Below, in pieces: positions 5,762 through 51,464 of a stretch of DNA of 64,000 bases; within the stretch, counting starts at the first letter, position 1; each line of letters opens with the position of its first letter. The stretch is from Bacteroidaceae bacterium. GTDB lineage: Bacteria > Bacteroidota > Bacteroidia > Bacteroidales > Bacteroidaceae. The notes beneath the pieces were generated by a model. It did no database searches and was not told where the DNA came from. It worked only from the letters and a program-made list of their open reading frames with translations. A program made the translations under genes and the position numbers. The stretch spans positions 1-64,000 of the forward strand of contig JAFQBB010000020.1 of the NCBI GenBank assembly GCA_017416805.1. The letters are read 5' to 3'.

Positions 5762-5781
5762 TAAGGTACGCGCGTACCTTA
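5762..5781. repeat. 20-bp perfect palindrome taaggtacgcgcgtacctta
   Basis: Perfect dyad symmetry with a central ACGCGCGT. A near-identical copy (taaggtacgcgcgtacatta) is at 51445-51464. In both places it precedes the seven-unit TGAAC array when read in the array's direction. Confidence 0.85.
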
Positions 5782-5869
5782 TATATATTAAGCTCTTTTT
5801 TCAGAATCGGACGCTTTAGGGCTGTCCGAACGGGTAACCTGTGACTGCCGGAACGGATAATTTACGGTT

Positions 5870-6036
5870 TTGCAGATGAACAATTATTGCATGCTCAAAT
5901 GAACAATTATTGCATGCCCAAGTGAACAGTTATTGGCTTACCCAAGTGAACTATAAGCGGCTACCCCAAGTGAACTATAAGCGGCTTAGGAAGTGAACTA
6001 TATACGGCTTGACAAGTGAATAATAGTTCACTTGAG
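5870..6036 (+). repeat. seven-unit 23/24-bp TGAAC repeat array (copy 1)
   Basis: TGAAC/TGAAT cores start at 5877, 5900, 5923, 5947, 5971, 5994 and 6017, giving spacings 23,23,24,24,23,23. Units read like AAGTGAACTATAAGCGGCTT with variable first units, and the last unit turns back on itself (AAGTGAATAATAGTTCACTT). The array lies between the ends of convergent transcription units. A reverse-oriented copy with identical spacing is at 51221-51385. With 5188-5380 and 5782-5870, where I see nothing further, this completes the 1-kb gap before the BNR gene. Confidence 0.85.
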
Positions 6037-6138
6037 AAGGCTCTGATATTCCGGATTCTCTGTCAATTATTGGTCATGCTTTATGCCACTGAAAGATGAA
6101 TATATCAGGCACTTGTCGGATACCAATAATTCGTCAGG

Positions 6139-9100
6139 TCACTGGATGACGGTCTTTTTGTTGTCGATGATGTATATGCCTGGATTGAGCCCTTGCGTTG
6201 CTTCCTCTTTGTGTCTTTTTGCTTTAATGAGCCGGCCATCGAGGGTATATACGTTTACCATTCCGTCAGTTGCTGTAGCGATGCTTTTGATGGCAGTAGG
6301 GGTGTATGACAGGGCAATGTTGTCGAATCCCAGTATTTTCTCTGAACCATTGCTTGTGTGTACGGCATAGAAACCGATAGTTGTTACGGCTTCACCGTCG
6401 CTTGCGAATGAGTGGCGCACTTGCTGCCATGCTTCTGCGTTGCTGGCAGGGGTGAGTTCGGTGCGTGCACCATCCCCCATCTGTACGAAGACGATGCCGT
6501 TGCCGCCTAATCCTGACTTCCATACGTCGGCCGTAAGTTCGTACTGGCCTTCGGGCAGACGCATCTCTTGAGAGAACATGATGGTGGATTCTCCCCAGTT
6601 CTGTCGCACCCAATAGGAGCGTTTGCCTCCGTCGGCAGGTCTTGGGCGTGAAGCAAAGAAGTTTGAGAAGTAGAGGTCGCCGCTTTGCAGGGCTGTCAGG
6701 TCGTTGTTGTTAGGGTTGGCATAGCTGATTTCCCAGCCTTCGGGAATGTAGATGGCACGGTCAGAGCTTACCCCGGAGCCTTGCATCACACTGTAATTGC
6801 CTTCGAAGTTTCCGTTGACAAGTGCGGTGGGATATACCTTCTCTTGATATGCTATGCCTTGAATCTCGCAAATCTCCTTGCGCGTAAGGGTGGTGTTGTA
6901 AAGGCGGAAGTTGTCTATCGTGCCGTCGAAATCGACGTTGTCGGCTGCATAGTCGGTGTCCCACCACTGGGTGCGTCCTATGTAGTTGCGGGTGTCGGCA
7001 GCTATCTTGGCGAGCATGTAGGCTTCGTGCTGATTGGCAGTGCCGCTCACGTCCTCTTTGCCGTCAATGTAGATGGTCGTTTTCTTTGTGGCGGCATTGA
7101 AGGTGACTGCCAGTCGGTATTCTTTGCCTGTCTGGAGTGTGGTGGATGAATTGACCATGGTTGTGGTGCCACCATTGTATTTGATACCGGCAGAGAGAGG
7201 GTTGGCACGAAGGAAAAGGCTGTTTCCCGATGCAGAACCGAAGTCGAACAGGCGTGGTGCCTTGTCGAGCGCATCGGCTTTGATGGTAAGCAACACGCTG
7301 TAACTGCGGAGGCTGTCGAGGATGCCCTCCTTGGCAACGGCATATCCGTTGGTGGTGAACCCTGTGGCGGTGTTTGCAGAAAGGTCGAGCAGGCCTGTGG
7401 CTTTTGCATTGCCTTGAAGAGCCAGCCCTTCGTCTTCACCGTCGAATGTGAAGTCGAGCATGAGGTTCTGGCTTATGTCGCGGGGCATGACCTTTACGAG
7501 GAACTCTTTGCTCATGTTGCCGACAGAGGTTGTCATTGTGACATCGGTGGCTTCTGTGGGATAGAAGAGTTCACCTGTGGGGGTGAGGATATCCGGGTGG
7601 CTTGATGTCCACGTAAGTTTCTTGCTGCCTATGGATGCAGGAAGAACAATGTCTGAGCAGGCCGTTGATGGAAGAGAGACGGCATCGAGCAGTCCCGAAT
7701 CTATGGCTGCGCGGATATCTGTTTGTTGCAACACTCCGTTGTAAATCTTTGCAGAAACCAGTTTGCCATCAAATCCGCCGATGGTGATGTCGCTGGACTT
7801 GAGGCCTTCGACCTCAAACTTCTGGTCTATCCAGCCTTCGCGATAGACAGTCAGTGTCTGTCCGTCGTAAGTGAAGGTGGCGTTCCATACATCGAGCTTG
7901 GTGAGATACCATTTCCCGTCAGTACCGCTGCTTTGGGTGGCCCATGCATCGGAGGTGCCGAGCAGGTTCTGACTCCAGTAAGTGGTTTCACCTATCTTTA
8001 TGTAGGGCTTCATGGTGGCTTTGTCGAGAGCATATTCGAGGTCGCCCATCTTCAGGAGTGTGCCGCCGTAGCTGTTGTGGTCGATGCTCCAGTTTGTCAT
8101 GATGGTGAACTGTTCGCCGCTCCCGATTTCAATCTTTTCGGTGTCTGTGCTTGTCATCTTCTTGTTCCAGACCTGTTCAAAGACCGGCGCAAGGGTGGTG
8201 AGCGCTGGTGTGGGCAACTGGTAGTCGGTGTTGATGCCTGTCGGGTAGCCGCGTGGGTAACCGACCCTTACCAGCCAGTAGTCATATTCGCCGTGCATCC
8301 ATGTCAGACGCAATCTGGAATCGGCAGAACCCGGAAGGACGAATGGGCGTACGTTGTTGAGTGCGGAGTTATTGGTCACCTGCTCCTTGGCCTTGACGTT
8401 GCCGTCCTCGTCCAGGGTGTATTTCCAGATTTCGTAAACCTTTGTTCCTGTGGATTCATTGGCAGTAGGGATTGACAAGTAGATGTCGTTGATATTCGCT
8501 TCGTCAAGGGCCATGCCACCGCTGTAGCAGTATTCAGTGTTTGATGGGTGGAACTTGCCTCCTCCGTTAGCGAGGTCAGTGAGTTTCCAGCTTGTACCGT
8601 TCCACCGTGCATAGTAGTATTGGTGGCTGTTCTTGTCCTGAGATATGCGTACCATGGCTACTACAGGATTTTCGTCCTCGTCGATGGCTATCTGCCACAC
8701 CCAGTCGCGATAGTTGGTGGGTGCATCGAGAATGGTGCCTGGGTAGGCGGACTTGTAACTTTCGGTCTTGCTCACATTGAACACTCCGTTTGCTATGGTT
8801 GAAAGCACATTGCCTTTCAAGTCGGCCAGCTGGGGATTGGTGGTTACAGAACCGTCGGTCCCGGTCTTTGCATTCAGGTTGATGGTGCTGAAGTACAACC
8901 AGTTGGGCCATTCGTTGTCGGGGTGGCCGGTCGTGTAGGCCACGTAGATCTTATCCTTCCCGTTGCTGTGGTATTTGGCGTATGGGCGTGCACCTGTACT
9001 CTGCACCATCTGGTAGGGTCCCCATTCGATTGCCACTTTGTCGTTCTCGTCGGGCAGAGAGAGTTTGGCAATGGTCGGGTGCCAGTTGATGCCGCGCCAG

Positions 9101-9606
9101 CAGAGGTAGATGTGGTCAGGGTCGTCACTGAGGATGAAAGGTGAAGGGTAGGTGGTGTTGTTGGCCACTTTGATTTCATGCTCCTCGCCGAGCGAGGTGA
9201 TGTCTCCTTTCTTGGCAGATATCCTGTAGTAGAAGCGCGGCTCGTCAGTGTGGCGTGCATAGAATATCATGATCCGCTCGTCAGGGAGAACGAGGAATGT
9301 GGGGTTGTTGTGGTCATCGGGCTGGAAACGTGAACGGACGAGCACATCCTGCTGCAATCCGCCGGCATCAGCCTTGAAATCAATCTGTGATGCTTTGATT
9401 GCTCCGTGAACATCGATATATCCGATGTAGGCTGCATCAATCTCGCCGTTGGCACTCTTGTAGTGTGTGGCACGTGGGTCTGCGAACCAGCACCAGGCTC
9501 CTTCGTCGGCAACGACATGGCCTGAGAAACTCTCTGTATGCTGCGCTGTAGCTGTCATAGCAAGGCATAAGAGACAACTTGTGATAAAAGATTTGATTGT
9601 CTTCAT
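6139..9606 (-). CDS. secreted BNR_4 / LamG multidomain protein, probable polysaccharide-active enzyme
   Basis: An 1155-residue exported protein with a signal peptide ending near TATAQ (residue 22). About residues 30-440 form a BNR_4-type beta-propeller (starts HVVADEGAWCWFADPRA, contains DDHNNPTFLVLPDERIMIFYARH). Later parts are an Ig-like segment (LTWTSSHPDILTPTGELFYP), a LamG/concanavalin-like domain (about 715-915, GTIDNFRLYNTTLTRKEI), a jelly-roll-like domain starting NGNFEGNYS, and a tail VYTLDGRLI...GIYIIDNKKTVIQ of the Bacteroides surface-protein type. BNR_4 includes ulvan-lyase-like PL24/PL25 propellers and uncharacterised enzymes, so a lyase or glycosidase role is plausible but not shown. 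It stands alone, with no SusC/SusD pair beside it. It is more GC-rich than the defence island. Confidence 0.8.
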   Translation of the reverse strand: MKTIKSFITSCLLCLAMTATAQHTESFSGHVVADEGAWCWFADPRATHYKSANGEIDAAYIGYIDVHGAIKASQIDFKADAGGLQQDVLVRSRFQPDDHNNPTFLVLPDERIMIFYARHTDEPRFYYRISAKKGDITSLGEEHEIKVANNTTYPSPFILSDDPDHIYLCWRGINWHPTIAKLSLPDENDKVAIEWGPYQMVQSTGARPYAKYHSNGKDKIYVAYTTGHPDNEWPNWLYFSTINLNAKTGTDGSVTTNPQLADLKGNVLSTIANGVFNVSKTESYKSAYPGTILDAPTNYRDWVWQIAIDEDENPVVAMVRISQDKNSHQYYYARWNGTSWKLTDLANGGGKFHPSNTEYCYSGGMALDEANINDIYLSIPTANESTGTKVYEIWKYTLDEDGNVKAKEQVTNNSALNNVRPFVLPGSADSRLRLTWMHGEYDYWLVRVGYPRGYPTGINTDYQLPTPALTTLAPVFEQVWNKKMTSTDTEKIEIGSGEQFTIMTNWSIDHNSYGGTLLKMGDLEYALDKATMKPYIKIGETTYWSQNLLGTSDAWATQSSGTDGKWYLTKLDVWNATFTYDGQTLTVYREGWIDQKFEVEGLKSSDITIGGFDGKLVSAKIYNGVLQQTDIRAAIDSGLLDAVSLPSTACSDIVLPASIGSKKLTWTSSHPDILTPTGELFYPTEATDVTMTTSVGNMSKEFLVKVMPRDISQNLMLDFTFDGEDEGLALQGNAKATGLLDLSANTATGFTTNGYAVAKEGILDSLRSYSVLLTIKADALDKAPRLFDFGSASGNSLFLRANPLSAGIKYNGGTTTMVNSSTTLQTGKEYRLAVTFNAATKKTTIYIDGKEDVSGTANQHEAYMLAKIAADTRNYIGRTQWWDTDYAADNVDFDGTIDNFRLYNTTLTRKEICEIQGIAYQEKVYPTALVNGNFEGNYSVMQGSGVSSDRAIYIPEGWEISYANPNNNDLTALQSGDLYFSNFFASRPRPADGGKRSYWVRQNWGESTIMFSQEMRLPEGQYELTADVWKSGLGGNGIVFVQMGDGARTELTPASNAEAWQQVRHSFASDGEAVTTIGFYAVHTSNGSEKILGFDNIALSYTPTAIKSIATATDGMVNVYTLDGRLIKAKRHKEEATQGLNPGIYIIDNKKTVIQ

Positions 9607-9618
9607 GTGTAAGCTTAA

Positions 9619-10848
9619 TTAGTTTATGGAATCGTTACGCTCCAATATGGAAAGCAGGTAGTTGCATTTCTGAGGGTCGCCCAAGGTCTTGCCCTTGTCG
9701 CATGAGAGTTTGACACAGGGATGCCATTCGCGGGACTCTGTGATGCGGCCACGAATCAGTTTCACGACAATGTTCATGGGCTTACAATCGGTCACATCGC
9801 ACGTGATGAAGGTGCCTACGCCATAGCTGTCGGTAATCTTTCCCTGGCAATATCGGTGTATCTCGATGGCACGGTCGATGTCCAGTCCGTTGCTGAAGAC
9901 GGCCTGCTTTGTCATGGGGTCGATGCCCAGTTGCTTGTATTTCTCTACAATAAGGTCCACCTGTTCTTCCTCCACACCACTGTCGATGCGTAAGCCGCAG
10001 AAGGTCATGGCCATACGCTTGGACAGGTTGTTGAAGAATACGTTGTCACCGAAGCAATCATACAGGAAGATGCCTACATTGCCGTCATAGACTTCGGACC
10101 ACTTGCTCATCACGTTGTAATTGCATTCGAACACTCCGCTCACTATCTCCTCGAAACTGATGCACTGGTGTGACATGGTGCCCAGGCAGGGGATGTTCTT
10201 CTTCATGGCCAGATATACATTGGAGGTGCCAGTGAACTTCCCACAATGGCCTCCGGTCTCTGCTTTCACCTCTTCATACGACTGGATCAGGGCATCAATC
10301 ACGCGCTCCTGATGCTGGAACGAGAAACGGCGGCGTGTACCCATATCGCCTAAAGTGAGTCCGCTCTCCCATATCCTTCTTCCTTTCTGAAGGCTTTTCT
10401 CATATTCGGCTTCTGCATTGTATTTCTCTGCATCGCCATTGAGCTGGTGCATCAATTCTGAGATGGTGGACAGGATGGGCATCTCCCACATGATGGTGGA
10501 CCACCATTTGCCTTTCACACGGATATCGAGATGGCCCTCGGCATCCTGATGGATGGAGAGTTCCGACGGATTGAAACGGTAGCCTCGCAGGAAGACATTG
10601 ATGAACCAATAGGGCAGGAAGGGGAAGGTGCAGGTCATGAATTCGCGTTCCTCATCCGTGATAACAACCTCGGACAGATGTTCCAACTGCTGGCGCAGCA
10701 GGCTGTCGAACCCTTTTGGATAACCGGTGTTCCTGCGGTCGAAGAATTGGTATTCGGTCTCTGCCCGCGGATACTTCTGAAGGATATAGTACATGCAGGT
10801 GAAGGTGTAGAGGTCGTTGTCAGTAAAATGATTGATGATAGGTTTCAT
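9619..10848 (-). CDS. pncB: nicotinate phosphoribosyltransferase
   Basis: Converts nicotinate and PRPP to nicotinate mononucleotide, an NAD salvage step in the cytoplasm. The protein starts MKPIINHFTDNDLYTFTCMYYIL, the standard PncB N-terminus, and has the conserved FRLRYGF-equivalent segments, GTSNVYLAMKKNIPCLGTMSHQ, with the His that is autophosphorylated in the family close to that region, and the C-terminal CDVTDCKPMNIVVKL...PCVKLSCDKGKTLGDP. The frame stays open a further 44 codons upstream, but that extension is not PncB-like and overlaps the promoter region, so the ATG at 10848 is chosen. About 409 residues, normal length. The NAD link to the TIR protein 5 kb away is probably coincidental. 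Confidence 0.95.
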   Translation of the reverse strand: MKPIINHFTDNDLYTFTCMYYILQKYPRAETEYQFFDRRNTGYPKGFDSLLRQQLEHLSEVVITDEEREFMTCTFPFLPYWFINVFLRGYRFNPSELSIHQDAEGHLDIRVKGKWWSTIMWEMPILSTISELMHQLNGDAEKYNAEAEYEKSLQKGRRIWESGLTLGDMGTRRRFSFQHQERVIDALIQSYEEVKAETGGHCGKFTGTSNVYLAMKKNIPCLGTMSHQCISFEEIVSGVFECNYNVMSKWSEVYDGNVGIFLYDCFGDNVFFNNLSKRMAMTFCGLRIDSGVEEEQVDLIVEKYKQLGIDPMTKQAVFSNGLDIDRAIEIHRYCQGKITDSYGVGTFITCDVTDCKPMNIVVKLIRGRITESREWHPCVKLSCDKGKTLGDPQKCNYLLSILERNDSIN

Positions 10849-10907
10849 GATATAATAATGTGTTTGGTCAGAGGGACCGGTGAATGGTCCGAAGGCTTTT
10901 TCATTTG

Positions 10908-10915
10908 CAAATATA
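10908..10915 (-). promoter_or_regulatory. -7 box of the pncB promoter
   Basis: TATATTTG (read on the minus strand) matches TAnnTTTG and lies about 60 nt upstream of the pncB ATG. The -33 element is weak. The leader between them contains a short ggacc/ggtcc hairpin (10873-10890). Confidence 0.45.
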
Positions 10916-11148
10916 GTGAAATATGGACAAATGGGCGAAAAAATAGGAAAAAACTCTCTGTGTGAGAATAAAAACGGCAACTAAGGGCTGGAAGAACTAT
11001 TGAAGGGAAGGGTGTAAAGGGGAGGGTAAATGGTGCTCGAAATGGGGAAGAATGTTAAAAACTTGGGATGTCTGGCAATTATTGGAAGAGAATGAGGCGT
11101 GAAGTGGATAAGAATTTATACCTTTGGCCGCTGGATGTATAGACAAAC

Positions 11149-11664
11149 ATGAATAAAAAGAACATGACAATGAAGAAATTAATGATTTTTGCAGTAGTGA
11201 TGACGATGTTTGCCGCCATGGTGGCGTGCTCTACGCCGCAGTCGGCTATCAATGATTTGGAATCGTTGGTGGAAAAGGTGGAGAAGAACCGTAAGGAATA
11301 TACCGACGAGGAGTGGACAACTGTGCTGAAGGAGTACTCGACCATCAATGAGGAACTGAAGGCGAATGAATATACGGACGAAGAACTGAAGGAGATAGGC
11401 CGCTTGAAAGGCCGCTATATGGGGCTCTTGACCAAGAGTGCCATGAAGGTGGCAGGCAGCCAGCTGAAGACTTTCTTCAAGCAGCTTGAAGGCGGCATGG
11501 AAGGATTGGGAGAAGAACTGGGTGCCTCGTCCAAGGAATTGGAAGGGATTGCTGAAGGTTTGGAAGATGAAATGGAAGGATTGGAAGAGGTGATGGATGA
11601 CTTTGCCGATAAACTGGAAGAGGGCCTGAAAGGATTTATAGAGGCATTCGATGAGGAGAAATAA
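11149..11664 (+). CDS. lipoprotein with helical charged repeats (DUF6565-like)
   Basis: A 171-residue exported lipoprotein: a short basic N-terminus, a hydrophobic stretch, and a lipobox-like MVAC, the Cys at about residue 27. The mature part is alpha-helical and acidic, with heptad-like segments (SAINDLESLVEKVEKNRKEYTDEEW, KAMKVAGSQLKTFFKQLEGGMEGLGEELG, EGLEDEMEGLEEVMDDFADKLEEG). It looks like the Bacteroides DUF6565 lipoproteins; I recall no function for them. ATGs at codons 1, 6 and 8 are all possible; MKKLMIF (11170) would give a more standard signal peptide. TACCTTTG at 11119-11126 is a good -7 box just upstream. Confidence 0.75.
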   Translation: MNKKNMTMKKLMIFAVVMTMFAAMVACSTPQSAINDLESLVEKVEKNRKEYTDEEWTTVLKEYSTINEELKANEYTDEELKEIGRLKGRYMGLLTKSAMKVAGSQLKTFFKQLEGGMEGLGEELGASSKELEGIAEGLEDEMEGLEEVMDDFADKLEEGLKGFIEAFDEEK

Positions 11665-11726
11665 TGATAATGGTATAACTCCGGGTTTTCGGACTGACTC
11701 GTAACTCCTTATTATTATAGAAAAAG

Positions 11727-11760
11727 AAGAGGCTGTATCCCATGGAGGATACAGCCTCTT
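11727..11760 (-). terminator. bidirectional terminator between the lipoprotein gene and tRNA-Leu
   Basis: AAGAGGCTGTATCC at 11727-11740 pairs perfectly with GGATACAGCCTCTT at 11747-11760. Read on the minus strand, the hairpin is followed by CTTTTTCT, so it terminates tRNA-Leu; it may also stop the lipoprotein transcript from the other side. Confidence 0.75.
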
Positions 11761-11769
11761 GCTTATTTG

Positions 11770-11851
11770 TGCGCCTGAAAGGACTCGAACCTTCACGCCG
11801 CGAAGCACCAGATCCTAAGTCTGGCGTGTCTACCAATTTCACCACAGGCGC
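11770..11851 (-). tRNA. tRNA-Leu (anticodon UAG)
   Basis: Read on the minus strand the acceptor arms are GCGCCTG / CAGGCGC with discriminator A and no encoded CCA. The D-arm GGTGAAATTGGTAGACACG, the anticodon stem CCAGA-CTTAGGA-TCTGG (loop positions 34-36 TAG), a long variable arm (TGCTTCGCGGCGT) and GGTTCGAGTCC in the T-arm identify a class II tRNA for leucine CUA codons. Confidence 0.95.
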
Positions 11852-11961
11852 CTGACAATTATTCTTAAATTGCGCGGCAAAGATAGGGAATAATTATGAA
11901 TTATGGATTATAATTATGAATTTTTATAAAAAGCTACTTGATTTTTGGAGATTCGAATGGT

Positions 11962-12996
11962 TTATCTTGCTGCCAACTCTTTTCTTGCCGTTTCTATAAT
12001 GGTGTCAATGCCGCGATTCATATCCTCGGAGGTCATATTCACGTGGATGTCCGGTTCTATGCCAAATTCCAACTGCTCCATGTCGGGGCCATACATGGGA
12101 CAGGCGGAGAATCGTACAGACCACCCGTTCGGCAATTCGGAGGAGAAGGGCATGCCGGAACCTCCACCTGTGCGGTCGCCGATGACGGTGACAAGGGGTA
12201 GCTGGCGCATACTGTTGACGAAATCGTTGGTGGCACTGTACGAACGCCGGTTGGTCAGCAGGGCTACAGGTTTCTGCCAGCGGACTCCGTCGGAAGGAGT
12301 GATCTTGACTGCCTCAGGGGCTGAAAAGTTATTGTGTCCCGTTCCCGTCTTGTGGCACATGTATCCGGTAGTCACCTCATCGTTCGTAAACCGGGCAGCC
12401 AGTTTGGTGGCATTGGTGAGCATGCCGCCCCCATTGTTGCGCACGTCCAGGATGAGGCCATTGCAGAAGGCCAGTTCGTTGAGCATCTCGCTGAGATTGC
12501 CGTCACCGATGCCGGTGGAGAAACTCTCGTAATAGACGTAAGCGATGTTGTCATCCAGGATGGTGTACTTCAGGCCGCCGGCTATCTTGTAATTGGTGCC
12601 CAAGTAGCGGCGTTGGATGCTGTCATTGAAATTGGCCGGATAATCTTCGTACCATTTCCAGTATCGTGCCACATCGTAGGTGGTGTATAGGTTGACGTGT
12701 CCGTCGCGCAATTCGGCCAGCATATTGCCCAACACCTCGAACAGCCCTTTCTGCGGCATGTCGGGGGTGATGAGTGGTGCATACCGGTCGCGAACCTCGT
12801 TCCAATCGAGTCCATACTCATTCTGCTTATAGTCGAAAAAGCAGTAATGCTCATCTATCATCTGCCACAGGGCCTCAAAGTTCCCCTGCGGGGTGTTGTC
12901 GAATTCTTCTTCACGGATGCAGGAGGTGATGGTCAGCATCAGGGAAAGCAAAAGCCAAGCCATGGCCCAATATCCGGACCGACAGGATTTTTTCAT
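11962..12996 (-). CDS. S41-family (tail-specific-protease-like) lipoprotein peptidase
   Basis: A lipoprotein of about 344 residues from the ATG at 12996 (an ATG 36 nt further up is possible but gives an over-long n-region). The signal is MKKSCRSGYWAMAWLLLSLMLTITSC, with lipobox TSC. The body matches the S41 C-terminal-processing-peptidase fold: ELRDGHVNLY (S41 N-terminal signature), ILDVRNNGGGM (beta-strand/substrate-binding loop), NRRSYSATNDF with the nucleophile serine, and VIGDRTGGGSGMPFSSELPNGW. No PDZ domain is evident. It acts in the periplasm or at the outer membrane, target unknown. It is separated from the upstream minus-strand genes by about 230 nt with its own promoter box. Confidence 0.88.
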   Translation of the reverse strand: MKKSCRSGYWAMAWLLLSLMLTITSCIREEEFDNTPQGNFEALWQMIDEHYCFFDYKQNEYGLDWNEVRDRYAPLITPDMPQKGLFEVLGNMLAELRDGHVNLYTTYDVARYWKWYEDYPANFNDSIQRRYLGTNYKIAGGLKYTILDDNIAYVYYESFSTGIGDGNLSEMLNELAFCNGLILDVRNNGGGMLTNATKLAARFTNDEVTTGYMCHKTGTGHNNFSAPEAVKITPSDGVRWQKPVALLTNRRSYSATNDFVNSMRQLPLVTVIGDRTGGGSGMPFSSELPNGWSVRFSACPMYGPDMEQLEFGIEPDIHVNMTSEDMNRGIDTIIETARKELAAR

Positions 12997-13071
12997 GATT
13001 CTGCTCTTCTGTATGACTGTATAACTCTTCATCTCTTTATACCTAATATATAGTGTGTAAACTCACCACTG

Positions 13072-13102
13072 CAAAAGTACGAAGTTTCTTCTATTTTCAC
13101 AA
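13072..13102 (-). promoter_or_regulatory. promoter of the S41 peptidase gene
   Basis: Read on the minus strand: TTG at 13100-13102, a 20-nt spacer, then TACTTTTG at 13072-13079, matching TAnnTTTG, about 75 nt before the chosen ATG. A second TACTTTTG occurs at 13211-13218. Confidence 0.55.
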
Positions 13103-13227
13103 TACCTCCTCTCTTTTTTGTACAGACACCCTTCGTCTTTTTGAATTGACAAAATGACAAAGTGTAAGTGGCAACGGCTGTATGGGCTGGTAAGCAAGGC
13201 CTGTGGGTTGCAAAAGTATGCTTGCTG

Positions 13228-16712: not shown

Positions 16713-16773
16713 AAGATGGCCAGGTTAATGTTTTTTTTCTCCCTAAAATAGTTAAACTGTATTAGTATGCTGG

Positions 16774-16781: not shown

Positions 16782-16886
16782 CGAATTATTTGCAAAAAAA
16801 TCGCTTACTTTGCAGCAAATTTGGCCAAATAGAGGCAAAAAATAGAGAGTTTGAAACTAAAATAATATAGAAAAGCAAATAAAACA

Positions 16887-37198: not shown

Positions 37199-37235
37199 CG
37201 TTCTTCTGTAATTTAGTTGAAATTAGGAGGAAATA

Positions 37236-37257
37236 AGGGGGCGGTCCGAAACCCCCT
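37236..37257. repeat. short GC-rich hairpin
   Basis: AGGGGG and CCCCCT flank a 10-nt loop CGGTCCGAAA just before the 22-bp array. It could back up the rpmE2 terminator, but there is no U-tract. Confidence 0.4.
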
Positions 37258-37287
37258 GTCCAATACAAGAAAACAGGCCTAAAAAAT

Positions 37288-37365
37288 GAACATATGTTCA
37301 AATGCCTCTGAACATATGTTCAAGTGCCAACGAACATATGTTCGTGGCCACTTGAACTTATGTTC
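37288..37365 (+). repeat. four-copy 22-bp GAACATATGTTC array
   Basis: GAACATATGTTC at 37288, 37310 and 37332, and GAACTTATGTTC at 37354: spacing exactly 22 bp. Spacers are aatgcctct-like, AAGTGCCAAC and GTGGCCACTT. It lies between the 3' ends of rpmE2 (+) and the DUF4834 gene (-). A related pair occurs at 19086-19138. Downstream, 37366-37552 holds only a CCGGGTTTTCGGACTGA motif (37512-37528), also found at 11681-11697. Confidence 0.85.
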
Positions 37366-43388: not shown

Positions 43389-43391
43389 CGC

Positions 43392-46007
43392 ATGTTTCTT
43401 TATTCTTGCATAAGAGGTAGGGGGATATTGGCAACTTTCCATATAAGGAGGTTTTTGCTTTTGTGTCTGCTGGTCATGGTTGGAATTTTTGCTTCAGCAC
43501 AAATTCGTGGTACTGTGACCGATTCATTGACACATGAGCCTGTACCTTTTGTGCAAGTCTATTATGAGGGCTCTACCATTGGTACACAAACCGATGAGCG
43601 TGGGCGATATCATCTGCCTTCACCGTCTGGAGGGAAATCTCAAAAACTAATCTTTCAATCCATTGGTTATAGTTCCAAGCATGTGTGGATAAAAAGTAAT
43701 GCTTCACGGCGAATCAATGTACGCATGCGGGAAACAGCACACGGTCTTTATGAAGTGACTGTAAAGCCTCGCCGTGAAAGGTATCGGCGTAAAAATAATC
43801 CGGCGGTCGATTTGATGCGTAAAGTGATAGCAAACAAACGCTATTCGGATCTGAAGAAACATGCATGGTATAGCTATTACGGTTACCAGAAGATGACTAC
43901 CTCGCTTGATGATGTGACACCCGAAAAACTTGAAGCAAAGATTTTTCAGCAGATGCCATTTTTGAAAGACCAACTTGAAGTTGATCCTACGACAAATAGG
44001 TTAATTCTTCCGTTGGCGATGGATGAAACAGTGACTCGATATGTTTGGAGGCGAGAACCAAGAGCTGAAAAAAGTATCGTGTTGGGGCAAAGGAGTGTTG
44101 GGGTGAACAATCTGCTAAGTGTTGGGGAAGGAATGACGACTATCATGGAAAGTATCTTTGGAAAGATTGATATCTATGATGAAGATATTGACCTTCTGGA
44201 AAAACGTTTCATCAGTCCTATAGCTACCAATGGAGCTATATCGTTTTATAAGTACTATATAATGGATACGACGAAAGTGGAGCAGGATTCTTGTTATCAT
44301 TTGACGTTTGTTCCTCAGAATAGTAATGACTTTGGTTTTACCGGGCATCTCTATATTACCACCGATGGCTGTTATCAGGTGAAACGGTGCGTGATGAGTT
44401 TACCACAAAAGACAGGAGTTAATTTTGTGAAAGAAATAGATATCCTGCAAGAGTTTGAACGCCTTCCTGATGGTTCATGGGGAATAAAAACGGACGATAT
44501 GCGTATAAATCTGGAGTTGGTAGATTTTGTGCAAGGTGTTCAGGTGCAACGTACCACTCGTTATAAAGATTATTCATTCCAACCCTTGGAGGAGTCATTG
44601 TTTCATCGGAGATTGAAAGAGGAAATTGATGCTGATGCACAGATACAAGATGCTGAGTTCTGGCAAAGTCACCGGCCGATTCCTTTGAGCCGTAAAGAGA
44701 TGGGGATGAATCGTTTTGTCAATGCAATAAAGGAAATGCCTTCCTATAAATATGCGATTGTTGTATTGCGTACTTTTGTTGAGAATTATATTGAAACAGG
44801 GACAGGGGGGCGGCCAAGTAAGTTTGACTTTGGTCCGGTGAATACGATAATCTCCAATAATTATATTGATGGCTTCCGTTTCCGGGTAGGCGGCAAGACG
44901 ACAGCATACTTTCATCCCAACTTGTTTTTGGGTGGGTATGTAGCTCATGGTTTGAAAGATAATGAGTTGAAATACAAAGTGGAAGCGGAGTATTCTTTTG
45001 AAAAGAAAAAACGTATTCCTCATGAATTTCCTCGTCGTTCTATAGCTCTTTCTCATCAGTTCGATGTGATGTCCCCTTCCGATAAGTTCCTGTTGACAGA
45101 CAAGGATAATATATTCTTGGCTTTCAAGACTAACACTGTTGATCAGTTGTCGTATATGCGGAAAACTATTGCCACTTTCAGGTATGAAGCGGACAATGAT
45201 TTTTCTACGAGTGTGGAATTACGCCATATTAACGATCGGCCGGCAGGCAACTTGGCTTATATCCGAAATGATGGCAAGGGGAATGAACGTGTACACGATA
45301 TTACAACTGTTGAAACTGCAGTTTCTTTCCGTTATGCCCCTAACGAAACCTATATAAATTCCAAACAAGGGCGAATGCCTGTCAATAATGATGCACCAGT
45401 TTTGACTCTTTCTCATACCGTAGGGGTTAAGGTTTTGGGGGGAGACTATAATTATCATATAACTGAGGCAAGCATTTATAAACGATTCTGGCTTTCATCA
45501 TGGGGGCGTATCAATGCTACGTTGAAAGGTGGGGTTGTCTGGAACCAGGTGCCCTTCCCTTTATTGTCGTTTCCTCCTACAAATCAGTCATATATAATAC
45601 AGCAAAACCATTTCCATATGATGAATAATATGGAGTTCTTTAATGACCGGTATGCTTCACTTGATTTGACTGCAGAGTTGAATGGAGTTCTGCTGAACAG
45701 GATTCCGCTTTTGAGGCATTTGAAATGGCGCGAAGTGTTTGGTGTCAATATTTTATATGGGGCACTTTCTGATAAGAATAATCCGAATATCAATAAAGAT
45801 GGAGGGGAACTGTTCTTGTTCCCACAGCGCGATGGAATGATTACAAGTTTTGCTATGGATTCTGAGACTCCTTATGTTGAATATCATGTGGGAGTGCATA
45901 ATGTGTTCCGTTTTTTACGTGTAGAATATTTCCGGAGACTCACCTATTTGCATTTGCCAAATGCAAATAAACATGGTGTACGCATTATGTTGCAATTTAA
46001 GTTCTAA
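43392..46007 (+). CDS. DUF5686 outer-membrane protein with carboxypeptidase-like regulatory domain
   Basis: An 871-residue outer-membrane protein. After a signal-like hydrophobic stretch (residues 20-36), a CarboxypepD_reg-like domain spans about 38-110 (IRGTVTDSLTHEPVPFVQVYYEGSTIGTQTDERGRYHLP). A DUF5686 domain and then a C-terminal beta-barrel of alternating aromatic strands follow, ending ...HGVRIMLQFKF. The final aromatic residue is typical of barrel-assembly signals. Function unknown. It is co-transcribed with dnaE, an unusual pairing that is conserved in some relatives (from memory). Confidence 0.85.
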   Translation: MFLYSCIRGRGILATFHIRRFLLLCLLVMVGIFASAQIRGTVTDSLTHEPVPFVQVYYEGSTIGTQTDERGRYHLPSPSGGKSQKLIFQSIGYSSKHVWIKSNASRRINVRMRETAHGLYEVTVKPRRERYRRKNNPAVDLMRKVIANKRYSDLKKHAWYSYYGYQKMTTSLDDVTPEKLEAKIFQQMPFLKDQLEVDPTTNRLILPLAMDETVTRYVWRREPRAEKSIVLGQRSVGVNNLLSVGEGMTTIMESIFGKIDIYDEDIDLLEKRFISPIATNGAISFYKYYIMDTTKVEQDSCYHLTFVPQNSNDFGFTGHLYITTDGCYQVKRCVMSLPQKTGVNFVKEIDILQEFERLPDGSWGIKTDDMRINLELVDFVQGVQVQRTTRYKDYSFQPLEESLFHRRLKEEIDADAQIQDAEFWQSHRPIPLSRKEMGMNRFVNAIKEMPSYKYAIVVLRTFVENYIETGTGGRPSKFDFGPVNTIISNNYIDGFRFRVGGKTTAYFHPNLFLGGYVAHGLKDNELKYKVEAEYSFEKKKRIPHEFPRRSIALSHQFDVMSPSDKFLLTDKDNIFLAFKTNTVDQLSYMRKTIATFRYEADNDFSTSVELRHINDRPAGNLAYIRNDGKGNERVHDITTVETAVSFRYAPNETYINSKQGRMPVNNDAPVLTLSHTVGVKVLGGDYNYHITEASIYKRFWLSSWGRINATLKGGVVWNQVPFPLLSFPPTNQSYIIQQNHFHMMNNMEFFNDRYASLDLTAELNGVLLNRIPLLRHLKWREVFGVNILYGALSDKNNPNINKDGGELFLFPQRDGMITSFAMDSETPYVEYHVGVHNVFRFLRVEYFRRLTYLHLPNANKHGVRIMLQFKF

Positions 46008-46166
46008 TTCACTATAACCTTTTGTTCCTACCTATTTTATATATTCTTCATCCAAATAAAAAGTGTTTTGTTTGTGTCGTTTTGGGTTGAATTTATGTTT
46101 TAAATCATGTTTTGGAAGCTACTTGCCGTAATTTTGTCCCTAAAAGCATAAATTTCCCCCCTTTTT

Positions 46167-46198
46167 TTTGTTACATTATAAAATAAGGTGTAACTTTG
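46167..46198 (+). promoter_or_regulatory. promoter of the glycogen operon
   Basis: TTTG (46167-46170), a 20-nt spacer, TAACTTTG (46191-46198), 66 nt before the first ATG. A good Bacteroidetes promoter. Confidence 0.65.
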
Positions 46199-46264
46199 AA
46201 TGCTGCTAATTTTGCGGTATAGATAAGTTATTAATTTATTAAACCTTAAAATAATAAACCAACT

Positions 46265-48205
46265 ATGAGTTATTTGCGATTTGACAAGACGCTGATGACC
46301 AATCTGGAAGAGAGTCTGCAAAGAGAGATTCTGCGTACCAATCGGTCTGGCGCCTATCACTGCTCTACCATTGTGGATTGCAACACGCGCAAGTATCATG
46401 GTTTGCTTGTTATCCCTATTCCTGAGATGGATGACGAGAACCATGTGTTGTTGTCCAGCCTTGATGAGACAGTGATTCAACATGGGGCAGAGTTTAACCT
46501 GGGTTTGCACAAGTATCAAGGTAACAACTACAGCCCGAACGGACACAAGTATATCCGTGAGTTTGAGTGGGAGAAAGTTCCTACAACCATTTATCGTGTG
46601 GGGGGTGTGGTATTGAAGAAAGAAAAGCTCTTCGTACACCATGAGAATCGTATCCTTATCCGCTACACTTTATTGGAAGCACATTCGGCTACCATTTTGC
46701 GTCTGCGTCCTTTCTTGGCTTTCCGTAGTGTGCGTCAATACACCCATGAGAACAGTCAGGCAAGCCGAGACTATCAATTGGTAGAAAATGGTATCAAGAC
46801 ATGTATGTATCCAGGTTATCCCGAACTGTTCATGCAATTGAACAAAAAGAATGAGTTCCATTTCCAACCGGATTGGTATCGGGGTATTGAATATCCGAAA
46901 GAGCAAGAGCGTGGATATGCATTCAATGAAGACCTTTATGTACCTGGATATTTTGAAGTGGAAATCAAGAAGGGTGAGAGCATTGTCTTTTCTGGTGGTG
47001 TATCTCCGATAACGACTCGTACATTAAAGGCGACCTTCGACAAGGAAGTTGAGGTTCGTGCTCCACGCGACAGTTTCTATCATTGCTTGGTGAATGCTGC
47101 CCACCAGTTCCATAACAAGCAGGGCGAGCGCAACTATGTGTTGGCCGGATATCCTTGGTTCAAGTGTCGTGCACGCGATATGTTCATTAGCCTTCCCGGT
47201 CTTACACTGGCTGTAGGTGAGTTGGACGAGTTTCACAACGCTATGGAGACTGCCCGTGAGGCATTGAACGATTGGATGAATGAACGTCCGAGCGAAGCCA
47301 AGGTGTATGAGATGGAACATCCCGACATCCTTCTTTGGGCCATCTGGACATTGCAACAATATGCCAAAATGGTGGGAGCCAAACAGTGCTGGACAAAGTA
47401 TGGCCAATTGATGGAGGATATCATGGATTACCTCATGAGCGGTAAACATCCCAATCTCTTCTTGCACCAGAATGGATTACTCTATACAAATGGTAGTGAT
47501 AAGGCCGTGAGTTGGATGAACTCTACAGTAGGTGGACGTCCCGTAGTAGCCCGTACAGGTTATTTGGTAGAGGTGAATGCCTTGTGGTACAATGCTTTGA
47601 TGTTTGTGGCCAAGATGATGAACGAACATGGTACACCAGCCGAGGCCGCTCCACTAGAGAGAATGGCAGATAAGGTGAAACCGGCATTTGTGGAAACATT
47701 CTTGAACGAATACGGTTATCTGCTCGACTATGTGGATGGTTACATGATGGATTGGAGTGTGCGTCCTAACATGATTTTCACTGTAGCTTTCGACTACAGT
47801 CCATTGGATACGCATCAGAAAAAACGTGTATTGGATATTGTAACTAAGGAATTGCTTACTCCGAAAGGACTTCGTAGCCTTTCACCCAAGAGTGGCGGCT
47901 ATAATCCAAATTATGTAGGTCCGCAAAACCAACGTGATTATGCTTACCATCAAGGTACGGCATGGCCGTGGCTGGCAGGCTTTTACTTCGAGGCTTATTT
48001 GCGTATATACAAGATGAGTGGTCTCTCTTTCGTAGAGCGTCAATTGATTGGCTATGAAGCTGAGATGAACTCACATTGTGTAGGCTCTATTCCTGAACTC
48101 TTCGATGGAAACCCGCCGTTCAAGGGGCGCGGAGCAGTATCTTTTGCCATGAATGTGGCCGAGATTCTGAGAACGTTGTACACATTGAATAAGTATAATA
48201 TATAA
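46265..48205 (+). CDS. glycogen debranching enzyme (amylo-alpha-1,6-glucosidase)
   Basis: A 646-residue GDE/GH133-type enzyme: an N-terminal beta domain (REILRTNRSGAYHCSTIVDCNTRKYHGLLVIPIPE, residues 15-50) and an (alpha/alpha)6 catalytic domain from about 290, with WFKCRARDMFISLPGL, NWM.ERPSE and YHQGTAWPWLAGFYFEAYL. It removes branch glucoses from glycogen or similar alpha-glucans in the cytoplasm. First gene of a + strand operon with a GT4 and a GH57 enzyme. No signal peptide. Confidence 0.92.
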   Translation: MSYLRFDKTLMTNLEESLQREILRTNRSGAYHCSTIVDCNTRKYHGLLVIPIPEMDDENHVLLSSLDETVIQHGAEFNLGLHKYQGNNYSPNGHKYIREFEWEKVPTTIYRVGGVVLKKEKLFVHHENRILIRYTLLEAHSATILRLRPFLAFRSVRQYTHENSQASRDYQLVENGIKTCMYPGYPELFMQLNKKNEFHFQPDWYRGIEYPKEQERGYAFNEDLYVPGYFEVEIKKGESIVFSGGVSPITTRTLKATFDKEVEVRAPRDSFYHCLVNAAHQFHNKQGERNYVLAGYPWFKCRARDMFISLPGLTLAVGELDEFHNAMETAREALNDWMNERPSEAKVYEMEHPDILLWAIWTLQQYAKMVGAKQCWTKYGQLMEDIMDYLMSGKHPNLFLHQNGLLYTNGSDKAVSWMNSTVGGRPVVARTGYLVEVNALWYNALMFVAKMMNEHGTPAEAAPLERMADKVKPAFVETFLNEYGYLLDYVDGYMMDWSVRPNMIFTVAFDYSPLDTHQKKRVLDIVTKELLTPKGLRSLSPKSGGYNPNYVGPQNQRDYAYHQGTAWPWLAGFYFEAYLRIYKMSGLSFVERQLIGYEAEMNSHCVGSIPELFDGNPPFKGRGAVSFAMNVAEILRTLYTLNKYNI

Positions 48206-48222
48206 TAAGGAGGAACCTGACT

Positions 48223-49488
48223 ATGAAAGTATTAATGTTTGGATGGGAATTTCCTCCCAAAATCCTTGGTGGACTGGCCGTAGCCTCTTACGGTATTACG
48301 AAAGGCTTGAGTGTGCAGGGCGATGTAGAGACAACTTTCTGTTTGCCCAAACCAACGGGTGAAGAGGAAAAGTTTCTCAATATCATTGGCATGAATCAAG
48401 TGCCCATTGTATGGCGTGATATGAATTATGACTATTTGAAGTCACGCTTGCAGAGCTACACTACTCCTGAGCAGTACTATGCCTTCCGCGATCATATCTA
48501 TGCCGATTTCTCTTACATGCACGTCAACGACCTTGGTTGTATGGAGTTTGCTGGTGGTTATCCGAAAAACTTGCATGAAGAGATAAATAACTACTCTATC
48601 ATTGCCGGAGTGGTGGCTCGCCAGCAGGAGTTTGATATTATTCATGCTCACGATTGGCTGACCTATCCTGCCGGTGTACATGCCAAGATGGTGAGTGGAA
48701 AACCGCTCTGTATCCATGTGCATGCTACTGACTTTGACCGTTCACGCGGAAAAGTAAACCCCACGGTCTATTCTATAGAGAAGGATGGTATGGATCATGC
48801 CGATTGCATCATGTGCGTGAGTGAATTGACTCGTCAGACAGTTATTCATCAGTATCATCAAGACCCCCGCAAGTGTGTGGCTATGCACAATGCGGTATAT
48901 CCTTTGTCGCAAGAATTGCAAGATATACCCCGTGTGGAACACCCGAAGGAGAAGGTCGTGACCTTCCTTGGCCGTATCACCATGCAGAAGGGACCCGAAT
49001 ACTTTGTGGAGGCTGCAGCTCTTGTACTTCAGCGCACACGTAATATTCGTTTTGTGATGGCAGGTTCGGGTGATATGCTCAATGCAATGATTAATTTGGC
49101 TGCAGAGAGAGGTATTGCTGATCGTTTCCACTTCCCGGGTTTCCAAAAGGGCAAGCAGGTGTACGAAGCATATAAGAATAGCGATGTGTTCGTGATGCCA
49201 TCCGTATCCGAACCTTTCGGTATTGCGCCATTGGAGGCTATGCAATGTGGTACGCCCTCTATCATCAGTAAGCAGTCAGGATGCGGTGAGATTCTTACCA
49301 ACGTCATCAAGGTCGATTATTGGGATATCAATGCCATGGCCGATGCTATCTACTCCATCTGTACTAACCCCTCGCTTTTCAAGTATCTGCAAGAGGAAGG
49401 AATCAAGGAGGTGGACCAAATCACTTGGGAAAAGGTGGGTCTGCGCCATCGTGCCATTTATGATGAGTTAATTAGAAAAAATAAATAA
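48223..49488 (+). CDS. GT4 glycosyltransferase, glycogen-synthase-like
   Basis: A 421-residue GT-B enzyme: N-terminal MKVLMFGWEFPPKILGGLAVASYGITKGL, the nucleotide-sugar half with VVTFLGRITMQKGPEYFVEAA, and the GT4 motif VFVMPSVSEPFGIAPLEAMQCGTPSIIS with the conserved E-x7-E. The KILGG loop matches the glycogen-synthase KTGG-like signature. It probably elongates alpha-1,4-glucan from ADP- or UDP-glucose; the donor is unknown. It lies between the debranching enzyme and the GH57 gene, with a structured spacer after it. Confidence 0.88.
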   Translation: MKVLMFGWEFPPKILGGLAVASYGITKGLSVQGDVETTFCLPKPTGEEEKFLNIIGMNQVPIVWRDMNYDYLKSRLQSYTTPEQYYAFRDHIYADFSYMHVNDLGCMEFAGGYPKNLHEEINNYSIIAGVVARQQEFDIIHAHDWLTYPAGVHAKMVSGKPLCIHVHATDFDRSRGKVNPTVYSIEKDGMDHADCIMCVSELTRQTVIHQYHQDPRKCVAMHNAVYPLSQELQDIPRVEHPKEKVVTFLGRITMQKGPEYFVEAAALVLQRTRNIRFVMAGSGDMLNAMINLAAERGIADRFHFPGFQKGKQVYEAYKNSDVFVMPSVSEPFGIAPLEAMQCGTPSIISKQSGCGEILTNVIKVDYWDINAMADAIYSICTNPSLFKYLQEEGIKEVDQITWEKVGLRHRAIYDELIRKNK

Positions 49489-49504
49489 TAAACCAAGGAA
49501 ATAA

Positions 49505-49642
49505 AGGAGTTAGAAGGAGTTATCGGCTCTGACGGGCCTAGGAGTTAAAAGCCAATAGTTTCGCAAGTCATTTGGCTAAGCAAACATGGTTTGCTGACAA
49601 CTCCTTTAACTCCTAAGCGAAGCGATAACTCCTCTAACTCCT
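49505..49642 (+). repeat. structured inverted-repeat element inside the glycogen operon
   Basis: Outer arms AGGAGTTAGAAGGAGTTATCG (49505-49525) and CGATAACTCCTCTAACTCCT (49623-49642), a middle stem TAGGAGTTA / TAACTCCTA (49539-49547 with 49607-49615), and two hairpins, AGCCAA/TTGGCT and AGCAAAC/GTTTGCT. It fills the 170-nt gap between GT4 and GH57 genes that are otherwise tightly packed. Confidence 0.78.
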
Positions 49643-49658
49643 AAAAAAAGAATAAACA

Positions 49659-51062
49659 ATGAAAACTATATGTCTTTATTTTGAGATACACCAGATTATC
49701 CATCTGAAACGTTACCGTTGCTTTGATATTGGTCGCGATCACTACTACTATGATGACTATGAAAACGAACGTAGTATTACCGATATTGCAGAGCGTAGTT
49801 ATATTCCTTCGTTGACAGCTCTTATCGACATGGCCAAGGCGAATGGTGGAGCCTTCAAAGTTGCTCTTTCGCTTTCGGGTGTAGGTCTTGAGCAGTTGGA
49901 GATGTATGCTCCGCGCGTAATCGAACTTTTGCACGAGTTGAACGAGACAGGTTGTTGCGAATTCCTTTGCGAGCCATACTCTCATGGCCTCTCTGCATTG
50001 GCCAACGAAGAGTGCTTCCGCGAGGATGTCGAGAACATGCGCAAGAAAATCAAGCAGATGTTCGGTCAAGACCCCAAGGTGTTCCGTAACAGCAGTTTGA
50101 TTTATAGCAATGAGATTGGTGCTATGGTAGCTGACATGGGCTTCAAGGGTATGCTTACCGAAGGTGCCAAGCACGTGCTTGGTTGGAAGAGTCCGCACTA
50201 CCTCTATCATTGTGCCTATAACAACAAACTGAAGTTGCTTCTCCGCGATTTCAAACTCTCTGATGATATCAGCCTCCGCTTTAACAATAGCGAGTGGAGC
50301 GAATATCCCTTGTTCGCCGACAAATACATAGGTTGGATAGCTGATATGCCCGAGGAAGAGCAAGTATTCAACATCTTTATGGAGCTTTCGGCATTGGGTA
50401 TCAGCCAACCGTTGTCAAGCAACATCTTGGAATTCTTGAAGGCTCTGCCTGCTTGTGCTAAAGAGCGTGGTATCACCTTCTCTACACCTTCTGAGGTGAT
50501 TGCCAAATTGAAGTCAGTTGACCAAGTTGACGTACCTTATCCTCTCAGTTGGGTAGATGAGGAACGTGATATCAGCTGCTGGTTGGGTAACGTGATGCAG
50601 CGCGAAGCATTTGACAAACTCTATAGTGTGGCCGACCGTGTGCGCATCTGTACCGATCGTCGCATCAAGCAAGATTGGAGCTATATGCAGGCTTCAAACA
50701 ACTTCCGTTTCATGACCACCAAGCAGACTGGTATCTGGTTGAATCGTGGTATTTATGATTCTCCTTTCGATGCCTTCACTAACTATATGAATATTTTGGG
50801 GGACTTCATCAGTCGCGTAAATTCACTCTATCCTGTAGAAATGGATAATGAGGAGCTGAATGCACTTTTGACTACTATCAAGAATCAGGGTGAAGAGTTA
50901 GAGATGCTTCAAAAGGAGAATGATAAGCTGCAAGCCAAACTTGCCAAGTTGACTCCTGTACCTCTCAAGACTAAGAAGGAGACAAAAAAAGAACCGACTC
51001 CAACTAAGAAGGAGGCAGCTCCGAAGAAGGCCGCGGCTAAGAAAGCAACCAAAAAAGGCTGA
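49659..51062 (+). CDS. GH57 alpha-glucan-active enzyme with basic tail
   Basis: A 467-residue GH57 protein starting KTICLYFEIHQIIHLKRYRC, with FCEPYSHGLSALANEECFREDVE (conserved region 3-like) and FRNSSLIYSNEIGAMVADMGFKGMLTEG. It acts on alpha-1,4-glucan (amylase or branching type; activity cannot be fixed). After about residue 390 the sequence becomes a coiled coil (LLTTIKNQGEELEMLQKENDKLQAKLAKL), then a Lys/Ala/Pro-rich tail (KKETKKEPTPTKKEAAPKKAAAKKATKKG) resembling histone H1-like tails. Last gene of the operon, followed by a terminator. No signal peptide. Confidence 0.88.
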   Translation: MKTICLYFEIHQIIHLKRYRCFDIGRDHYYYDDYENERSITDIAERSYIPSLTALIDMAKANGGAFKVALSLSGVGLEQLEMYAPRVIELLHELNETGCCEFLCEPYSHGLSALANEECFREDVENMRKKIKQMFGQDPKVFRNSSLIYSNEIGAMVADMGFKGMLTEGAKHVLGWKSPHYLYHCAYNNKLKLLLRDFKLSDDISLRFNNSEWSEYPLFADKYIGWIADMPEEEQVFNIFMELSALGISQPLSSNILEFLKALPACAKERGITFSTPSEVIAKLKSVDQVDVPYPLSWVDEERDISCWLGNVMQREAFDKLYSVADRVRICTDRRIKQDWSYMQASNNFRFMTTKQTGIWLNRGIYDSPFDAFTNYMNILGDFISRVNSLYPVEMDNEELNALLTTIKNQGEELEMLQKENDKLQAKLAKLTPVPLKTKKETKKEPTPTKKEAAPKKAAAKKATKKG

Positions 51063-51081
51063 ATAAGATAATGCGAATATA

Positions 51082-51121
51082 AAGAAAAAGGGTTGCCAAT
51101 ACGGTAATCCTTTTTCTTTTA
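51082..51121 (+). terminator. terminator of the glycogen operon
   Basis: AGAAAAAGGGTTGCC pairs with GGTAATCCTTTTTCT (two G-U pairs), with a short loop and TTTT following. Strong intrinsic terminator 20 nt after the GH57 stop. Confidence 0.78.
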
Positions 51122-51220
51122 TAATGACATGAAAAAATGGTGGCAGAGTCACAGGTTACTTGTAAAATGACCTCCAAATATCCAATGAAATACTATATCC
51201 AGTGTGCTTCAAAAGCTGTT

Positions 51221-51385
51221 TTAAGTGAACTATAGTTCATTTGTCAAACTGTATATAATTCACTTCCTAAGCCGCTAATGGTTCATTTGGGGTAGCCGTA
51301 AGTATTTCACTTGGGTAAACCGTTAACTGTTCATTTTGTAAGCTGCAAGTATTTCATTGGGAATTGCATAAATAGTTCATTTGCA
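51221..51385 (-). repeat. seven-unit 23/24-bp TGAAC repeat array (copy 2, inverted)
   Basis: Read on the minus strand, TGAA cores start at 51379, 51356, 51333, 51309, 51285, 51262 and 51239: spacings 23,23,24,24,23,23, the same series as copy 1 at 5877-6017. Spacer words also match in order (CGGTTTACCCAA, CGGCTACCCCAA, GCGGCTTAGGAAGTGAA, final AGTTCACTTAA). It lies between the 3' ends of the glycogen operon (+) and the 51588 gene (-). An extra inverted unit is near 51185. Confidence 0.88.
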
Positions 51386-51444
51386 GAGTAAATTATTGAC
51401 ACTAAATGTTGTGTGTCGGGAGTTTGATGAATATCTATATATAA

Positions 51445-51464
51445 TAAGGTACGCGCGTACATTA
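51445..51464. repeat. 20-bp palindrome taaggtacgcgcgtacatta (copy 2)
   Basis: One imperfect pair compared with the perfect copy at 5762-5781. It precedes copy 2 of the TGAAC array in the same relative direction as at copy 1 (core-to-centre distance 75 here, 105 there). The rest of 51386-51587 shows only AT-rich sequence. Confidence 0.8.

Follow-up and report, generated by a model that had tools for sequence, protein, structure and literature searches.

The window analysed here is a 64,000-nucleotide stretch (positions 1 to 64,000) of contig JAFQBB010000020.1 from a Bacteroidaceae bacterium (GCA_017416805.1), and it carries two distant copies of a repeat element built from a left-end palindrome, an array of 23/24-bp units, a terminal dyad and a tail. 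Copy 1 is flanked by genes for a DUF1883-TIR protein and a BNR/laminin-G protein, and copy 2 by genes for a GH57 glycosidase and for a protein that matches nothing in Pfam; both copies lie between convergent genes, as an earlier reading made from the letters alone (hereafter the sequence-only reading) had stated. One neighbour of copy 2 has relatives, 54-56% identical, in two 'Bacteroidaceae bacterium' assemblies, in line with a Bacteroidaceae host. The parts of the two copies are as follows.

5757..6101, forward strand: whole element, copy 1; ends approximate (left 5-15 bp before the palindrome core, right ~80-84 bp past the dyad core), from end-to-end alignment of copies
5762..5781, no strand: left-end palindrome of copy 1, TAAGGTACGCGCGTACCTTA, scored as a weak two-way terminator-like hairpin
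5851..6013, forward strand: seven 23/24-bp units of copy 1, with starts at 5851 (degraded), 5874, 5897, 5920, 5944, 5968 and 5991; spacers, outward from the dyad, TGAC, TAGG, ACCCC and TACCC
6014..6033, forward strand: terminal dyad of copy 1, AAGTGAATAATAGTTCACTT
6034..6101, forward strand: tail of copy 1, CTGCCAATTATTGGCTATG-like, kept within one subfamily
51159..51468, reverse strand: whole element, copy 2; ends approximate; same subfamily as the copy on contig C13 (L046/L047 homology from -234/-256 to +80 around the dyad)
51445..51464, no strand: left-end palindrome of copy 2, one base changed (GGTACGCGCGTACA on the forward strand)
51243..51382, reverse strand: six 23/24-bp units of copy 2, with starts at 51382, 51359, 51336, 51312, 51288 and 51265
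51223..51242, reverse strand: terminal dyad of copy 2, AAATGAACTATAGTTCACTT
51159..51222, reverse strand: tail of copy 2, common, among the own copies compared, to the C13 copy

Re-reading of the sequence confirmed the two arrays, both palindrome positions and the spacing series 23,23,24,24,23,23, which is given by core starts at 5877, 5900, 5923, 5947, 5971, 5994 and 6017 in copy 1 (forward strand) and, identically, at 51379, 51356, 51333, 51309, 51285, 51262 and 51239 in copy 2 (reverse strand). The core word and the unit number required adjustment. TGAAC, which had been given as the core, occurs in six of the seven cores of copy 1 and in four of the seven of copy 2, the general form being TGAA followed by any base. 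The seven cores are real, but the seventh sits inside the 20-bp dyad with which the array closes (6014-6033; 51242-51223); the repeated part is therefore six units plus a dyad rather than seven units, with at least one further degraded unit upstream of the six in copy 1.

A multicopy intergenic family in the genome of origin

The genome of origin (G000, a 3.16-Mb draft in 64 contigs, 91% complete) contained 18 arrays, 17 of them found by BLAST of copy 1 and the eighteenth (C61:43410) by profile. In this last one (L147), 22-bp repeats related to the units, AGTGTACTACAATCGGCTTGGC, form a homogenised array, and no dyad or palindrome was seen. All 18 were intergenic by our own gene calls. The parts run in the order end palindrome, degenerate units, well-kept 23/24-bp units, 20-bp dyad and short tail, and palindrome-bearing copies are ~310-360 bp long. 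At the left end, where palindrome-bearing copies only were taken in, the pairwise agreement of seven G000 copies drops to chance just before the palindrome; at the right end, four close copies reach chance ~80 bp past the dyad, and L046/L047 likewise end at +80. Whole units have been gained or lost between copies (L039, L053, L050), and the distal units vary from one copy to another (L049, L053). Since the copies differ in sequence, the case that they might be simple recent duplicates did not occur, and the proposal of an uncharacterised dispersed element was borne out by the 18 arrays, by common ends where these were testable and by related copies elsewhere. No description of this element was found in the literature searched, in which the letter matches to unit or palindrome, among those listed, looked unrelated by title. 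The family is multicopy and intergenic, with common ends where tested, mostly species-specific positions and separable parts.

Among the 14 copies with both neighbours called, seven lay in convergent, seven in tandem and none in divergent gaps, compared with 15 convergent, 128 tandem and 20 divergent among the 163 other gaps; these counts come from our own gene caller, with some neighbours weakly scored and the four of 18 copies without a called neighbour unclassed. The absence from divergent gaps would fit a structured RNA, or a mobile terminator or 3′ stabiliser, in which the palindrome and dyad would work as hairpins in the RNA at the ends of genes, and the same explanation is favoured by the terminator-like score of the copy 1 palindrome and by RNA fold z-scores of -3.7 and -3.2. 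It is countered by an RNAalifold covariation term of +0.24, which amounts to none, with two-sided change in two of 21 pairs; by another terminator-like site, which already separates copy 1 from the left gene at 5566-5600; by the palindrome of copy 2, which was not scored as a terminator; by the lack of the exact palindrome in half of the own arrays; and by Rfam, whose one match in the window was a tRNA, with nothing at the element. We regard this explanation as improbable, and as a structured RNA the element was rejected, since it offers a terminal hairpin only and no covariation.

Further identities were considered. The polarity of the array, with units decaying away from one end, recalls a clustered regularly interspaced short palindromic repeat (CRISPR) array with trailer decay; nevertheless, the short spacers are common to copies and species rather than unique, and this identity is effectively refuted. 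A phage or plasmid origin was also rejected, as no match was obtained and the exact 20-bp unit and 19-bp palindrome were not found in viral contigs. The Bacteroidales promoter consensus, TTTG-N19-21-TAnnTTTG, had no full match in the 18 elements.

Two other dispersed families were noticed. One resembles a miniature inverted-repeat transposable element (MITE), in which terminal inverted repeats (TTCTTCTGCAATTTAGTTGAAA-like) enclose palindromic units of 21-22 bp, TGAACATATGTTCA. It occurs in the window at 37201-37365 and at about 19294 (reverse strand) (L013, L014, L021, L023), and on G000 contig C19 it directly adjoins the array element. Another repeat, ending GTTTACCGGACACCAATAAT, adjoins several arrays (flanks of L041, L050, L051 and L054), as if elements nest. 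Beside copy 1, the gene at 4131-4901 encodes the DUF1883 and TIR-domain protein, which has a defence-like architecture.

Unit frame, spacer order and spacing

Each unit comprises a 20-bp core, AAGTGA plus an inner word plus CGGCT(T/A), followed by a 3-5 bp spacer. Spacing was decoded in 26 arrays (17 own and 9 congeneric) read outward from the dyad, with any distance from 14 to 34 bp allowed between successive unit starts; the set excluded C61:43410, which has no dyad, the array G012:C62, cut by a contig end, the hits in G001, G009 and G179, and G215. Under this freedom 147 of 149 confident spacings were 23 or 24 bp, and the series 23,23,24,24 outward from the dyad was found in 20 of the 26 copies (15 of 17 own and 5 of 9 congeneric). 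The spacers are specific to their positions: the first, next to the dyad, is TGAC or CGAC in 25 of 26 copies, the second is mostly TGGG-like, the third is ACCCC or ACCCT in 20 of 26, and the fourth is mostly TACCC or ACCCC. The expectation that spacing would be kept while spacer bases drift thus held for the spacing, whereas the spacers proved to be position-specific and common to copies. Units 1-4 scored 27, 28, 24 and 20 on average, whereas units 5-7 scored 3, -3 and -6, where 33 is the maximum and -4 the 99th percentile of the null. The claim that spacing is kept where unit sequences have diverged is supported by units 5-6, which average 50% identity between copies and are still 23 bp apart, in 13 copies picked for their 23-bp spacing. 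Length changes inside units 1-4 amounted, among the 26 copies, to one clear single-base change (L077) and one doubtful one (L069), the remaining departures being whole units or other unit types. Whole units are gained and lost, spacing and position-specific spacers are fixed near the dyad and change is faster far from it, which gives the picture of an array with a constrained head near the dyad and a distal minisatellite turning over.

The sequence-only reading had taken the equal series of the two window arrays as a sign of selection on spacing. Because these arrays are homologous, equal series alone proves nothing and reflects first of all common descent, and the indel controls were weak or unusable. 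The part of the argument that stands is that spacing outlasts sequence, and selection on spacing is likely. The proposed period of about two helical turns does not hold: 23-24 bp corresponds to 2.2-2.3 turns at 10.5 bp per turn, so that successive unit starts rotate by ~70-100 degrees.

Relatives, inner words and the palindrome module

The genus set consisted of 15 genomes, namely G000 and 14 congeners. Profile R1 matched six of them (G000, G001, G002, G009, G012 and G014), five of 61 near relatives and seven of 399 family genomes (own genome included in each), the family search adding G215 (eight matches) and G179 (one match), from two other genera. Nine of the 15 genus genomes had no array under R1 or R2, a second profile built partly from arrays that it later finds, and across 393 order genomes R2, with strict filters, matched the own genome alone. 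The concern that no other genome would have the spacing series was not realised, as the series is present in other genomes. TGAA words are common to G012, G014 and G002; spacer order is broadly kept in G012 (five places) and G014 (three places), and G002 (two places) has shorter arrays, one of them without ACCCC. R2 gave 17 places each in G001 and G009, counted at E <= 0.01 with the weakest ones doubtful, a number close to the 18 arrays of G000. In G001 and G009 the inner word is ACAGGCCTAC-like, and it is ACAGCGCTCC-like in G215, while the AAGTG...GGCT frame stays, as do spacers of the ACCCC and TGAC types; the replaced word also occurs within the dyad of some G001 and G009 copies. Dyad-like ends were seen in 7 G001 and 10 G009 arrays. 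In G215 (L099, L101-L103), a block of ~23-bp units (GGAATACTATCCTTAGG-like) lies directly upstream of AAGTGAA units, two minisatellite types standing head to tail.

Positions are mostly not shared. Around the GH57 gene beside copy 2, no array match was found in 14 loci of 13 congeners, and the search for an empty site showed gene order rearranged there. Cross-species array pairs with shared flanks numbered 13, of which five share the array's own gap and eight have arrays elsewhere. G001 and G009 have arrays in the same gap with both flanks common and the direction equal; opposite directions were found in three shared neighbourhoods (G000 with G001/G009, G012 with G014, and G009 with G014) and could reflect either inversion or hot spots of insertion. 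These neighbourhoods are L240/L243, L226/L244 and L142/L216/L233, with two or three species each.

The palindrome had been described as preceding each array. All nine exact G000 copies of its 12-bp core do adjoin an array (the reversed control gave one place), yet it is a separable module, as each occurs without the other. With one mismatch in 16 bases allowed, there are 10 places in G000 and eight in other genus genomes (five in G002 and one each in G006, G011 and G014). The tenth G000 place (C6:131596, one mismatch) has no array, and nor does a shorter relative at C27. Among the foreign places, two carry an AAGTGAA-type array (G014 C28 and G002 C138), one a dyad remnant (G002 C162), and the G011 palindrome lies inside an apparent coding gene. 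The other four front a different 22-bp array, CAATCAGTGCTTCATTAGGTG-like (G002 C70, C141 and C153, and G006 C17; L264, L257, L252 and L255). The palindrome site in G002 C153 and the G014 C39 array both lie upstream of one and the same gene; the right part of G002 C153 still aligns to the G014 dyad and tail, with the 22-bp CAATCAGTGCTTCATTAGGTG array in the middle, which suggests that arrays were exchanged inside a kept frame. Some contigs with 22-bp arrays begin just past a 5S-rRNA-like end, and because the G002 ones start in repeats after such an end, chimeric assembly is possible. In G005 (L119), the 22-bp CAATCAGTGCTTCATTAGGTG array is found after the GH57 gene as well.

A palindromic left end, a dyad and the want of terminal inverted repeats would suit a repetitive extragenic palindromic (REP)-like element spread by a REP-associated tyrosine transposase (RAYT), that is, a Y1 (HUH) transposase. 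Y1_Tnp (PF01797) had no match in the G000 draft (91% complete), and its presence does not track the arrays: five of the 15 genus genomes encode it, two with arrays (G012 and G014) and three without, and four array genomes do not. Such a spread is very unlikely here.

The arrays could be functional cis-sites, a distributed platform to which an oligomeric reader of the 20-bp unit binds, serving nucleoid organisation or as a supercoil sink or insulator, the inner word differing between species in a dialect-like manner because protein and sites co-evolve. The fixed spacing and spacer order in TGAA-word species argue for it, as do the replacement of the word within a kept frame and spacers in G001, G009 and G215, the new word in some G001 and G009 dyads, similar array numbers (18 in G000, ~17 in G001 and ~17 in G009) and the excess between convergent genes. 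Array positions mostly not common to species, nine array-free genus genomes, the loose order in G001 and G009, the lack of a candidate protein and a unit phase that is not an integral number of turns argue against it, and we hold this explanation to be possible but rather unlikely.

Interpretation and comparison with known systems

We consider the family to be, probably, a lineage-specific, non-coding, dispersed and modular intergenic element made of palindrome, 23/24-bp array, dyad and tail. It would spread whole or by parts, either mobilised in trans by some enzyme or through ectopic copying via hairpins and repeats. The four dyad-proximal units and the dyad would be the head under constraint, probably through recognition of the 20-bp units by a protein that needs them in a fixed array, and the distal units would be a freely turning-over minisatellite. 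Copies at intergenic, often convergent, sites would persist because they do least harm there, and a mild insulating or terminating effect at convergent sites is possible.

Several observations weigh against this interpretation. The exact palindrome is absent from nine of the 18 own arrays and, with up to one mismatch in 16 bases, has no match in the array-bearing genomes G001, G009 and G012, so that one fixed element is too simple a description. Terminal inverted repeats were not found above shuffles in eight of nine copies, the ninth being marginal (8 of 200 shuffles), in a comparison of left with right element ends in which resident insertion-sequence (IS) ends were not searched. No empty site with a target duplication was recovered from the congener loci searched, where the neighbours are rearranged, and transposition is thus only inferred. 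The strict order of ACCC spacer, unit and dyad was found in 2 of 17 G001 and 5 of 17 G009 arrays, and reversed units in three G001 arrays, which together make the order looser in these two genomes. Between clades the frame was 77%, the spacer 79% and the word 32% identical (128 pairs, 21 units), compared with 85%, 86% and 60% within clades; these figures favour the interpretation, but they rest on homologues from models rewarding the frame, and their averages keep L070, mis-parsed by the pattern. Gapped pairwise alignment gave 12.4 substitutions per gap in units 1-4 (272 gaps, 190 pairs) and 5.6 in units 5-7 (354 gaps, 91 pairs), against 18.4 in the tails (5 gaps, 6 pairs of four copies). We think that the gaps in arrays are mostly paired false gaps, but the count gives no support to spacing selection; since unlike inner words align with such gaps, the decoding of unit starts was relied on instead. 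Unit-level conversion could also account for the kept spacing.

A bolder reading, in our view doubtful, is that the arrays form a distributed DNA system which a protein reads, with a dialect in each species and parts that can be exchanged. If it were true, genera would have the unit frame, position-specific spacers and dyad in common, the 8-bp inner word would be replaced throughout the copies within a genome, the end palindrome would be a socket able to carry quite different arrays, and a coevolving oligomeric DNA-binding protein would read the units in fixed phase. 

The family offers a testable case of the spread and concerted evolution of binding-site arrays, and in draft genomes from this group its arrays are likely to break contigs.

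REP elements and bacterial interspersed mosaic elements (BIMEs) are intergenic palindromic units, many of them at gene 3′ ends; unlike the REP/BIME-RAYT pairing, the arrays described here show no RAYT correlation. The BOX layout, boxA-(boxB)n-boxC, is similar in its fixed ends, variable number of central modules and intergenic location, and BOX is not known to contain a polarised array ending in a dyad. BOX elements of Streptococcus pneumoniae are named in PMC10969869. MITE464/PgRS of Porphyromonas gingivalis is likewise a minisatellite inside a dispersed intergenic element, differing in its 41-nt repeats and its terminal repeats, according to PMC4596501.

The sole close precedent in the literature searched is BrickBuilt of P. 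gingivalis (Klein et al. 2015), for which PMC4596501 describes 23-nt tandem repeats, "lacking spacer regions", between a leader and a tail, 19 intergenic copies per genome, some without leader or tail, gain and loss of whole units, a narrow host range and predicted hairpins. BrickBuilt has 12-nt IS5-type terminal inverted repeats, both present in 4 of 19 copies, with short target duplications in three of these four (PMC4596501). Our element differs in that no terminal inverted repeats were found and the left end is itself a palindrome, and in its dyad end, ordered 23/24 alternation, position-specific spacers and four constant proximal units. It shares with BrickBuilt the ~23-bp tandem units between unlike leader and tail (in palindrome-bearing copies, other copies being without leader), a similar copy number (18 here, ~19 there), the intergenic location, the gain and loss of units, the narrow range and predicted hairpins. 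Compared by description rather than by letters, it resembles BrickBuilt in kind, save for the one feature of terminal inverted repeats.

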